NCBI GenBank assembly: GCA_021828155.1 | Contig: JAKAST010000005.1 | Span: 1-40,118 of the forward strand | DNA length: 40,118 nucleotides | Direction of reading: 5' to 3' | DNA from: Microcaldota archaeon | GTDB taxonomy: Archaea; Micrarchaeota; Micrarchaeia; Micrarchaeales; Micrarchaeaceae | Part shown: positions 68 through 31,305 of the stretch, one piece after another | Numbering within the stretch: position 1 is the first letter of the stretch | Layout: the number at the start of each line of letters is the position of its first letter | Notes under the pieces: generated by a model | Seen by the model: the letters and a program-made list of their open reading frames with translations, nothing else | Databases searched by the model: none | What the model was told of the DNA's origin: nothing | Program-made: the position numbers and the translations under genes

Positions 68-835
68 ATGCTTTACCTTATAGGTGTTGGGCTTGCCGAT
101 GGGGACGTGCCGATAGCTGCACTTGACGTGTGCAGGCGTTGCACCATCTACGCTGATACATACACCAGCCTCATGGACGATAAACGCCTGGATTACCTGG
201 AGGGCCTGTTCGAGAAGAAAATTCCGAAACTGAGCAGGTCGGATTTGGAGGAGAACGCTTCGGTTCTGATTGAGCGTGCCGCGCACGAAGACATAGCCGT
301 GTTGGTCGGTGGAGATCCGCTCACGGCCACTACACACAAGATACTCTTCATAGCCGCCAGAAATGCGGGCGTGACGCTCAAGATAGTGCACGCGAGCTCC
401 GTTTTGTCGGCTGTAATTGGTGAGAGCGGCCTTGATTTCTATAGGTTTGGTGCAGTATGCACAGTGCCGAGATGGGGCCCAAACTATAAGCCTGTATCAT
501 TCTACGAGACTATAGAGAGAAATATTAGGGACAATCTCCACAGTGTGGTGCTGCTGGATTACGACGCTGCGAATAGCTCGTCTATACCATTGCAGGAGGC
601 ATTGGACGTGATAGATGCGGCTGAACAGCACTATAGGCATGGTATATTGGTCAAAGAAAAAATTGTTTTAGTCATGCACAATCTAGGGCGCGACGATCAG
701 TCAGTTTCAGTGCTCAGCCTCAGTGATGCTAGAGCGCTAAAGTTTAATAATGGCGTGACCTCAATAATAGTGCCTGCAAAAATTACCGACGTGGAGCGTG
801 AGTCCATAGCAGGCATGCATGGTGTCAGTGCATGA
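68..835 (+). CDS. dphB: Diphthine synthase
   Basis: S-adenosylmethionine-dependent methyltransferase that methylates the 3-amino-3-carboxypropyl group on the modified histidine of elongation factor 2 during diphthamide synthesis. The 255-residue length is normal for archaeal DphB. Seen: the tetrapyrrole-methylase-type N-terminus (MLYLIGVGL), the YADTYTS segment at about residues 28-34, the GGDPLTATTH loop at 81-90, and the region ending in YRFGAVCTVP near 125-134. A TATA-like box (about 22-30) lies upstream of the ATG. The stop overlaps the start of endA by 4 nt, so the two are probably co-transcribed. Identification is by recognisable family motifs. Confidence 0.93.
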   Translation: MLYLIGVGLADGDVPIAALDVCRRCTIYADTYTSLMDDKRLDYLEGLFEKKIPKLSRSDLEENASVLIERAAHEDIAVLVGGDPLTATTHKILFIAARNAGVTLKIVHASSVLSAVIGESGLDFYRFGAVCTVPRWGPNYKPVSFYETIERNIRDNLHSVVLLDYDAANSSSIPLQEALDVIDAAEQHYRHGILVKEKIVLVMHNLGRDDQSVSVLSLSDARALKFNNGVTSIIVPAKITDVERESIAGMHGVSA

Positions 836-1998
836 CCCTTGAAATATGCTATGATAGCAAGCGGAGGCGCCTGTTCGCAAAAGACCAGTCGACCATAGAC
901 ATACTAAGGAACGGCAGCATTGGCATGTATGGGAATGGGGAACTTGATTTGATAGTCGAGGAAGCGCTATATCTTGTAGACGTAAGGAAGGCTGTGTGCA
1001 CCGATGCCAGCTCGGGAGAGGCCCTGACTTTCAACGATATCGCTGAAAGGTTCATAAAGAATGGCAAGCTCATGGCCAGATACTTCACGTACAAAGACTG
1101 GAGGGATAGGGGCCTCATGATACGGCCGCCGTCGGCAGAGCTCGTTTCTGACCAAAGCGAGGCTGTTAAAAAGTACCCTGCGTCTGAGCTAAAGCTCAAG
1201 GGAGTGCACCTCGAAGGAGTATTCTTCCCGGGCGATATGACCACGGTAGTAGACGACCCGGTAGGTGGCCAGGAGATATACGAGAAGTACTGGCTAGGAC
1301 AGTTCGGGACGTACAAGGTAGCAGGGCACGGGACGCTCAACAAACTCGACGTATACGAGACGCTTTTCCTGGCTGATGCCGGAGCGCTCAAGATAAGGAA
1401 TTACTCAAGGAAGCAGGTTATGGACATTGCAATAGCCAGGCGCTCTGACTCTCAGAAGCTTTATGACGTATACAGAGACTGGCGCAGCAAGGGCTATGTC
1501 ATAAAGTCGGGATTTAAGTTTGGCACGCATTTCAGGGTATACTTCCCCGGGGCCAGTCCAGTAAAGAGCGACAGCGAATGGATACACTCAAAGCATGTAC
1601 TGCACGTATTCCCGCGCGACACCAAACTGCTGATATCTGAGTGGGCGCGTGCCATACGCGTTGCGCACTCCGTCAGGAAGACGTTCATACTTGCGATCCC
1701 GGGGAAAAGCAGGATGAAGAAGCTTGCGATAGACTATGTGCTGTACCACAGGCACAACGGCAATATAGAGGTGCCGGGCACGGACTCTCCGCGCTACGCC
1801 ATGCTCTCTTTGGGCGAGAACGAGTATATCGGGGGGAGCGAGCTCGCCGCGGTAATAAACGAGACGAAGTCCAGAAAGCTCGAACTGATAATTGCGATAG
1901 CTGACAGGGAGACCTCAGTAACGTATTACAAAGTAAGGAGGATAAGCCTGCCAAAAAGCGCTTACGAGTACTACGAAATAGACTGGATGCAGCCGTAG
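832..1998 (+). CDS. endA: tRNA-splicing endonuclease, three-unit (epsilon-2-like) form
   Basis: Cuts precursor tRNAs at bulge-helix-bulge motifs to release introns. The core has the family signature: WRSKGYVIKSGFKFG (about 217-231), FRVY with the likely catalytic Tyr237, HSKHVLHV with His252, and RVAHSVRK with Lys283. The His-Lys spacing of 31 matches the M. jannaschii enzyme. At 388 residues it is about twice a homotetrameric alpha subunit. About 160 residues precede the catalytic domain, and a further domain of about 100 residues follows Lys283, ending in ISLPKSAYEYYEIDW. This three-part layout matches the epsilon-2 enzyme reported from ARMAN archaea, which accepts relaxed splice motifs. 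An intron-bearing tRNA-His lies at 29695-29780. Assignment of the flanking units rests on length and layout, not on an alignment. Confidence 0.9.
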   Translation: MTLEICYDSKRRRLFAKDQSTIDILRNGSIGMYGNGELDLIVEEALYLVDVRKAVCTDASSGEALTFNDIAERFIKNGKLMARYFTYKDWRDRGLMIRPPSAELVSDQSEAVKKYPASELKLKGVHLEGVFFPGDMTTVVDDPVGGQEIYEKYWLGQFGTYKVAGHGTLNKLDVYETLFLADAGALKIRNYSRKQVMDIAIARRSDSQKLYDVYRDWRSKGYVIKSGFKFGTHFRVYFPGASPVKSDSEWIHSKHVLHVFPRDTKLLISEWARAIRVAHSVRKTFILAIPGKSRMKKLAIDYVLYHRHNGNIEVPGTDSPRYAMLSLGENEYIGGSELAAVINETKSRKLELIIAIADRETSVTYYKVRRISLPKSAYEYYEIDWMQP

Positions 1999-29522: not shown

Positions 29523-29702
29523 GTGACAACCAAAACATGCCCGATATGCGGCTCTGCATTCGAGTGCAGGGGTATATCACTCAGAAACCCCTGCTGGTGC
29601 CTGAGGGTCGAGGTAACGCCTGAGCACCGCAAGGAAATCGCCCATGTGACAAATGAATGTGTCTGCGAGAACTGTCTCTCCGGTAAGAAAAAAAGACCCT
29701 AG
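29523..29702 (+). CDS. Small cysteine-rich CWC-type protein
   Basis: A 59-residue frame starting GTG at 29523, cysteine-rich and lysine-ended. Cysteines fall at 6, 9, 15, 24, 26, 46, 48 and 51: CPICG, FEC, NPCWCL and CVCENCL. The CPxCG...CWC...CxCxxC order matches the Cys_rich_CWC family, small presumed metal-binding proteins of unknown role. The last codons (GKKKRP) are read across the A-tract that acts as the T-tract behind tRNA-His on the other strand. The stop overlaps the tRNA-His 3' end by 8 nt. The start codon is the least certain part. Confidence 0.72.
   Translation: MTTKTCPICGSAFECRGISLRNPCWCLRVEVTPEHRKEIAHVTNECVCENCLSGKKKRP
29688..29694 (-). terminator. T-tract terminator of tRNA-His
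   Basis: Seven consecutive Ts on the minus strand directly after the discriminator base, typical of archaeal intrinsic termination. Confidence 0.55.
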
Positions 29703-29780
29703 CCGGGATTTCCGCGATGTGTGTCGGACCCGGCCTTTAAGGTCCACAGCCTTACGTGCGGCCGCTACACCACTAGGGCC
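29695..29780 (-). tRNA. tRNA-His (anticodon GUG) with T-loop intron
   Basis: Minus strand. G-1 (29780) pairs with C73 (29695). Acceptor GCCCTAG/CTAGGGT (one G-U), D-stem GTG/CAC, anticodon stem TAAGG/CCTTA with loop CTGTGGA, so GTG at 34-36 (His). The T-stem CCGGG/CCCGG encloses 21 nt in place of 7. Removing 14 nt (29709-29722) leaves the normal loop TCCGACT. The 14 nt together with flanking bases fold as a bulge-helix-bulge: helix TCCG/CGGA with three-nt bulges ACA and AAT. Encoded G-1 and C73 are histidine identity elements. Divergent from hisS. Confidence 0.9.
29709..29722 (-). other. 14-nt intron in the T-loop of tRNA-His (59/60)
   Basis: Intron sequence on the minus strand: ACACATCGCGGAAA. 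The splice helix is TCCG (29728-29725) with CGGA (29714-29711). The bulges are ACA (29724-29722) and AAT (29710-29708), each cut after its second base. Excision restores a seven-base T-loop. The inner helix is minimal, so this is a relaxed motif. Position 59/60 is non-canonical; the usual archaeal site is 37/38. Confidence 0.8.
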
Positions 29781-29809: not shown

Positions 29810-29820
29810 ATATTTAAAAA
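29810..29820 (-). promoter_or_regulatory. TATA box for tRNA-His
   Basis: TTTTTAAATAT on the minus strand, about 35 nt upstream of the tRNA 5' end, implying a short 5' leader for RNase P. Confidence 0.55.
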
Positions 29821-29922: not shown

Positions 29923-31305
29923 ATGGCCGCCGATGCAGACAATGACGACGATATTGGTAATGGATTGCGTGACATAAAGGGAGTGCAGTCCTTCCTTCCA
30001 AGCGAACAGATGACGCGCGAATACATCGCCGATACACTCAAGAGGCATTTCAGGCTGTATGGCTACAGGCCGATTGAAACCTCGATACTTGATTTCTACG
30101 ATATAGCGGCAAGTAAGTATGCGGGGGGCGCTGAGATACTCAAGGAGACCTACAGGCTCAAGGATCAAGGCAACCGCGACCTGATCCTGCGCTACGAACT
30201 CACGTTCAAGCTTGCCAAGCTCATAGGCATGAACCCTAACCTACGCATGCCGTTCAAGCGCTACGAAATCGGCAAGGTATTCCGGGATGGTCCGACTGGA
30301 ACAGGAAGGCTGCGGGAGTTCACGCAGTGCGATGTCGATGTAGTTGGCACGGCTAGCACGCTTGCCGATGCAGAAATTATAGCTCTCGCATTCGATATAT
30401 TCAGGGATTTTGGTATAGGCGTATACATAGAGGTGAACAGCAGGAACCTGATGTTCGGAATATTCGAGCGTCTAGGCATTCCAGAACGCAATCGCATCGA
30501 TGCAGCGCTCAGCCTTGACAAGCTGCTTAAGATTGGCGAGAGCGGAGTGAGGAAGGAGCTGCTCGATAAGGGCATAAGCAAGGATATTATAGACGGCATA
30601 TTCAAGATTCTCGGAGAGGCAGATTCCAGGAAATCAAACGAGGAGAAGCTCGAGTACCTGGAAAGCATAGCCAATAACTCGCTTGCCAAGACTGGGGTTG
30701 CGGAGCTTAAGGAGTTTTTCGGCTTCTGCGCCTCTATGCACGCAACCGGCGACCTGCGGCTCACTCCCACGCTTGTTAGGGGCCTGGGCTACTACACGGG
30801 TATAATATACGAGGTATACCTAGAAAAAGGCAAAATGAAGAGCACACTTGCTGCTGGCGGACGCTGGGATCATATGATAAAGGACTTCCTTAAGTCTGAC
30901 AGGGAATATCCTGCCACGGGCATAACGTTTGGCCTTGACTCTATTTACGCAGCACTGCAGGAGAAGAAGGCAAGCCTTCCCGAAGCAGCGGCTCGGAGCG
31001 TTCCAGTGCTGCTGATAATCCCTGTAGATACTATGGAAGAGAGCCTGAAGATTCTGCAGCAGTCCCGCGGGATAGGCATAAGTGCAGACATACTGCCTGG
31101 GAAGAAGCTCACCAAAGCGCTCGAGTACGCTAACAGCGAGTCCATCCCATATACAATGGTAGTGGGCAAGAAGGAGCTTGAGATCGGAAGCGTCAAGCTG
31201 CGCGACATGCATACCGGCAGAGAGCGCGAGATAAGCCTTTCGGCCCTAAAGAGCTCCCTGACCCTGCTCAAGGACTACGGCGCCCACCTTGGCGCAGAAT
31301 CATGA
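29923..31305 (+). CDS. hisS: Histidyl-tRNA synthetase
   Basis: Class II synthetase charging tRNA-His. The 460 residues show an acidic N-terminus, then GLRDIKGVQSFLP, motif 1 region RHFRLYGYRPIETSIL, motif 2 (RYEIGKVFRDGPTGTGRLREFTQCDVDVVG) and the histidine-specific block VRGLGYYTGIIYEVY. Motif 3-like GGRWDHMI...GITFGLDSIY follows, and then the anticodon-binding domain from about residue 355. In most HisRS the histidine motif is RGLDYYTG; here Gly replaces Asp. It is transcribed away from tRNA-His, with start codon and tRNA 5' end 143 nt apart. Confidence 0.95.
   Translation: MAADADNDDDIGNGLRDIKGVQSFLPSEQMTREYIADTLKRHFRLYGYRPIETSILDFYDIAASKYAGGAEILKETYRLKDQGNRDLILRYELTFKLAKLIGMNPNLRMPFKRYEIGKVFRDGPTGTGRLREFTQCDVDVVGTASTLADAEIIALAFDIFRDFGIGVYIEVNSRNLMFGIFERLGIPERNRIDAALSLDKLLKIGESGVRKELLDKGISKDIIDGIFKILGEADSRKSNEEKLEYLESIANNSLAKTGVAELKEFFGFCASMHATGDLRLTPTLVRGLGYYTGIIYEVYLEKGKMKSTLAAGGRWDHMIKDFLKSDREYPATGITFGLDSIYAALQEKKASLPEAAARSVPVLLIIPVDTMEESLKILQQSRGIGISADILPGKKLTKALEYANSESIPYTMVVGKKELEIGSVKLRDMHTGREREISLSALKSSLTLLKDYGAHLGAES

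Follow-up and report, generated by a model that had tools for sequence, protein, structure and literature searches.

A predicted 14-nt intron in the T-loop of the tRNA-His gene of a Micrarchaeales archaeon

Known T-arm introns and the present locus

Bulge-helix-bulge (BHB) introns in the T-arm or T-loop of archaeal tRNA genes have already been described (PMC6379350, PMC3293823, PMC12397907), and both T-loop BHB introns and broad-specificity tRNA-splicing endonucleases (EndA) are known (PMC6379350, PMC3293823, PMC12397907, PMC8450103). According to earlier reports, epsilon2 endonucleases process BHB and BHL introns located at several different positions of the tRNA (PMC6379350, PMC12397907). 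Both a BHB (Ile-UAU) and a BHL (Cys-GCA) precursor are cleaved by the ARMAN-2 enzyme, which depends on its ARMAN-specific loop (PMC12397907); the literature search yielded no assay of this enzyme with a T-loop substrate whose intron is as short as the present one. The nuclear tRNA-Ile(UAU) gene of Cyanidioschyzon merolae also carries a T-arm intron, but this organism is a eukaryotic alga and the intron is one of three in the gene (PMC9602550); its origin is presumably independent.

The sequence analysed here (the window) comprises positions 1-40,118 of contig JAKAST010000005.1 (GCA_021828155.1) of a Microcaldota archaeon of the order Micrarchaeales, 40,118 nt in length. Like the non-canonical BHB introns of Thermoproteales, Caldiarchaeum and ARMAN-1/2, the intron proposed here is located inside a complete tRNA and features a BHB core with two predicted EndA cuts. 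It differs from them in its length of 14 nt, in having almost no inner helix, in its occurrence in Micrarchaeales tRNA-His and in its patchy distribution among orthologues. The present tRNA-His intron was not found in the literature searched, which did not include the primary ARMAN intron paper (Fujishima et al. 2011). T-loop introns as such are known in archaea; what lifts this case out of the ordinary is the lineage-wide T-loop intron set, together with the very small size of the intron and the clear proof by comparison. The locus very probably represents a working tRNA-His gene whose T-loop holds a 14-nt BHB-type intron at position 59/60; EndA would cut this intron out and RtcB would join the exons.

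Gene anatomy, splice geometry and splicing machinery

The tRNA-His gene is read on the minus strand with an encoded G-1 at 29780, C73 at 29695 and the anticodon GTG; the full precursor (29780..29695) is GGCCCTAGTGGTGTAGCGGCCGCACGTAAGGCTGTGGACCTTAAAGGCCGGGTCCGACACACATCGCGGAAATCCCGGCTAGGGTC. The acceptor, D, anticodon and T stems are all complete and paired. The acceptor stem (29779-29773 with 29702-29696) has standard pairs at seven of seven positions, with a G-U wobble at 1-72 versus G-C in two congeners. The T-stem, formed by CCGGG (29733-29729) and CCCGG (29707-29703), closes a loop of 21 nt instead of the usual 7 (29728-29708, TCCGACACACATCGCGGAAAT). Taking out the 14-nt insert (29722-29709) leaves the standard 7-nt loop TCCGACT and a complete tRNA with all stems paired. 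The initial annotation had described a 14-nt intron at 29709-29722, a T-stem closing over 21 nt that reverts to a seven-base loop, an encoded G-1 and C73 and an otherwise intact tRNA, and direct reading bears out this anatomy. The features of the locus are listed in Table 1.

Table 1. Positions of the tRNA-His gene parts, flanking signals and related genes in the window
Feature	Position	Strand	Basis
tRNA-His(GUG) precursor, G-1 to C73, 86 nt including the 14-nt intron	29695..29780	-	direct reading, orthologues
5' exon, G-1 to C59	29723..29780	-	BHB rule, intact orthologues
Predicted intron ACACATCGCGGAAA, position 59/60	29709..29722	-	direct reading, orthologues
3' exon, T60 to C73	29695..29708	-	direct reading, orthologues
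Central BHB helix, exon strand T54 C55 C56 G57	29725..29728	-	67/68 pairs in 17 sequences
Central BHB helix, intron strand CGGA	29711..29714	-	orthologues, RNA folding
5' bulge, A58 C59 ^ A	29722..29724	-	orthologue comparison
3' bulge, A A ^ T60	29708..29710	-	orthologue comparison
TATA-box-like TTTAAATA, start of a 16-nt block	29811..29818	-	alignment
T7 run directly after the tRNA, probable terminator	29688..29694	-	direct reading, alignment
hisS, histidyl-tRNA synthetase, divergent neighbour	29923..31305	+	sequence comparison
EndA, epsilon2-type tRNA-splicing endonuclease	832..1998	+	PDB match, residue comparison

The gene was missed by ARAGORN and by Rfam at the gathering cut-off. ARAGORN also missed it with introns allowed, because the program looks for anticodon-loop introns, and a permissive Rfam scan recovered the gene minus its T-arm, with a score of 15.2 bits. 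The interrupted T-loop explains the absence of tRNA-His from the output of the standard finders run on this genome. The 16-nt block that starts with the TATA-box-like element, TTTAAATATCTTTACA, is located 23-38 nt upstream of G-1 and is identical in the alignment of three congeners, and T-runs follow the tRNA-His gene in congeners as well.

RNA folding of the T-arm by itself recovered the T-stem and the TCCG/CGGA helix, together with the 3' bulge of 3 nt. Inside the central helix lies a 7-nt loop, CACATCG, with a single possible C-G pair, so this copy lacks the inner flanking helix expected of a strict BHB; elsewhere, an inner helix of 2-3 bp is possible in congeners and one of about 9 bp in the 36-nt form of genome G036. 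The subtype is BHL-like, with a strict 3-4-3 core, shared by 17 orthologues, and an almost absent inner helix. The term "relaxed bulge-helix-bulge" in the initial annotation is apt for the missing inner helix and inexact for the core. As relaxed and BHL forms without an inner helix belong to the wider BHB class, the subtype is affected and the membership is not.

In archaea, each splice site falls between bulge residues two and three (PMC4307357). Given two 3-nt bulges, this rule yields cuts at AC^A and AA^T, and hence a 14-nt intron at site 59/60. In the proposed precursor, T54-G57 would pair with CGGA of the intron in a helix stacked on the T-stem, with a 3-nt bulge on each strand. The epsilon2 EndA would cut both bulges between their second and third bases, and RtcB would join C59 to T60, restoring the loop TCCGACT. 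Because the inner helix is nearly absent, cleavage would depend on the BHL tolerance known for ARMAN-2 EndA on other substrates. The tRNA-His precursor may serve as a compact and testable natural epsilon2 substrate, with a strict 3-4-3 core and almost nothing inside it.

The EndA gene, pointed out in the initial annotation as the candidate enzyme, indeed encodes an epsilon2-type protein nearest to the ARMAN-2 enzyme (PDB 4fz2/9w2k, E 3e-181), to which it is closely homologous and with which it shares the catalytic and ARMAN-specific loop residues. Y237, H252 and K283 correspond to the catalytic Y236, H251 and K282 of ARMAN-2 EndA (PMC6379350); Y161 and K162 of the ARMAN-specific loop, together with R276 and W385, correspond to Y160, K161, R275 and W384 (PMC12397907). 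None of the catalytic and loop residues varies among the 24 genomes compared; W385 falls beyond the end of two truncated copies. With this triad and loop, the enzyme is predicted to accept non-canonical motifs. An RtcB ligase gene is present elsewhere in the genome. This gene (L325 247-3177, contig C16) is interrupted in frame by an intein of ~490 aa, directly ahead of a conserved Cys, and RtcB itself must therefore undergo protein splicing; RtcB inteins of such a kind are known (NF038162).

Orthologue comparison and alternative explanations

To collect tRNA-His orthologues, 60 related genomes were searched at the DNA level and a named genome collection was scanned with a pattern. The 133 matches to the tRNA-His body were reduced by duplicate removal to at least 62 genes with a 7-nt T-loop and 17 with a longer one, counted as distinct sequences and not as independent events. 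All of the longer T-loops (17/17, Micrarchaeota) can be read with an insert of 13-39 nt at 59/60, and the acceptor stems of these genes have 6 or 7 of 7 pairs. Both congeners possess the intron (16 and 15 nt) in near-identical splice-site surroundings.

Standard pairs were found at 67 of the 68 central-helix positions over the 17 sequences. Shifting the 3' strand by one to four positions gave at most 39 pairs and 5000 shuffles gave at most 42, and redistribution of the 3' strands among the sequences never reached the observed pairing. Base 55 covaries with its partner (C-G in nine sequences, T-A in seven, T-G in one), and base 57 does so in one sequence (A57-T). Since the site, the bulges and the helix recur in 17 distinct orthologues, a chance insert is excluded, and the intron, the TCCG/CGGA helix and the two 3-nt bulges proposed initially are all backed by the comparison.

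The same data bear on the possibility that the T-loop is truly enlarged, with the 14 nt retained in the mature molecule as an additional mini-helix. RNA folding indicates that the TCCG/CGGA helix would be stable, as this explanation needs; however, the insert ranges from 13 to 39 nt at a single position, with conserved bulge bases, and most orthologues have a 7-nt loop, the commonest being identical to the predicted spliced one. An extended T-loop would also disturb T-loop/D-loop contacts. Permanent enlargement is thus highly unlikely.

A real intron might instead be cut one base earlier, at 58/59, leaving the loop TCCGAAT; the sequence alone permits the partition TCCGA[CACACATCGCGGAA]AT. We consider this very improbable, as TCCGAAT occurs in no intact orthologue found, whereas TCCGACT is the commonest T-loop among intact tRNA-His genes, and the bulge rule (PMC4307357) places the site at 59/60, as annotated initially, in 17 of 17 interrupted orthologues.

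A second, uninterrupted tRNA-His gene, which the initial annotation had named as evidence against its reading, was found neither in this genome (84.7% complete) nor in the congener G001, G019 or ARM-1. The last of these, an archaeon known from a co-culture, has a single-contig genome (AP024486.1, 814439 bases; G026), where the only tRNA-His-like anticodon arm is that of the gene interrupted by 17 nt. Since no other tRNA-His was found in this single-contig genome, the interrupted gene has to work in ARM-1, unless a diverged tRNA-His escaped the search, and the presence of the intron there makes the prediction checkable on real RNA. An unseen second copy in the incomplete assembly is disfavoured by G001 and ARM-1. 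Decay to a pseudogene, with a functional copy elsewhere, would fit the incompleteness of the assembly and the G1-U72 wobble of this copy, but is extremely improbable, as all stems pair, the exon up to C59 is nearly identical in three species, the promoter-like block and the T-run are conserved and no further copy appeared in any of the four genomes.

The functional intron-containing gene is supported by its anatomy, the common site, the covarying helix, the EndA residues, the presence of RtcB, the conserved promoter-like block and T-run, the three other T-loop introns of the same genome and the search for a second tRNA-His, which found none. We infer that the gene is transcribed, that the transcript is cleaved and ligated, and that the spliced tRNA-His is used. 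Other intron classes were ruled out: the insert is at 59/60 and not one base 3' of the anticodon, as a canonical 37/38 intron would be; the exons are contiguous and in order, unlike those of a split or permuted tRNA; and 14 nt compares with a group I core of a few hundred nt, with no Rfam intron match.

In a tree of EndA and RadA from 24 genomes, intron-bearing tRNA-His appears in three separate places, namely in this genus together with G019 (a weak grouping, support 0.51), in G013 plus G036, and in ARM-1. Several gains, or losses, of the intron have therefore taken place at this one site.

The adjacent hisS gene and other tRNA features of the genome

The HisRS of this genus shares about 32% identity with that of most family members; identity is 78% with G001, 48% with G008 and 58% with G029 (a fragment), and the best score was obtained with NF009085. 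It is probably a different, laterally acquired type adjoining tRNA-His. A link between this unusual HisRS and the intron was rejected, as G013, G019 and ARM-1 combine the intron with the common HisRS type.

Long T-loops are also present in the genome's own tRNA-Leu(CAA), Arg(UCG) and Arg(CCU), i.e., three more T-loop introns. The Leu(CAA) intron was found in 30 of 30 Micrarchaeales genomes read, from two families, with a length of 11-16 nt; lengths were determined automatically, except for G017 (mis-cut by the script; 16 nt) and G049, which were read by eye. Its helix is TTC(A)/(T)GAA, the 3' bulge is larger and often reads CAAAT, and the exact junction is ambiguous owing to runs of A. The genome's own Leu(CAA) gene is located at C11:23829-23729, and its Arg(UCG) (C8:20448-20560) and Arg(CCU) (C18:14463) genes have the same helix. 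The Arg(UCG) intron, 16-44 nt long, was present in most family members read and in none of the order relatives read.

It is conceivable, though rather unlikely, that a group of ultra-short T-loop introns (in the tRNAs for His, Leu-CAA, Arg-UCG and Arg-CCU) is maintained specifically in Micrarchaeales, and that the Leu-CAA intron, being nearly universal in the order, would be under selection. Such an intron might break the tRNA 3' half used by integrases as an attachment site or, alternatively, might delay T-loop modification until splicing. The patchy His intron and the near-universal Leu-CAA intron offer a comparative system for the gain, retention and loss of tRNA introns.

In this genome, 7 of the 33 tRNA genes have a base other than U at position 55. 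C55 occurs in both Lys genes, Gly-CCC, Ser-GCU and Arg-GCG, and G55 in Ala-CGC and Cys-GCA; Lys (2596-2522) and Gly (12539-12466) are examples in the window. The idea that C55 in tRNA-His points to incorrect splicing or a pseudogene was rejected, as the base is shared with these five other tRNAs and with most intact tRNA-His orthologues. Pus10 had no match in the incomplete (84.7%) genome.

Partial 3' tRNA copies resembling attachment-site duplicates of integrated elements are located at C7:12039-12096, C11:15613-15671, C16:4687-4744 and C11:13612-13684. For Asn and Ala, the distance between the partial copy and an intact one is 0.8-1.4 kb, and the Asn, Ala and Glu parent tRNAs are without a T-loop intron.
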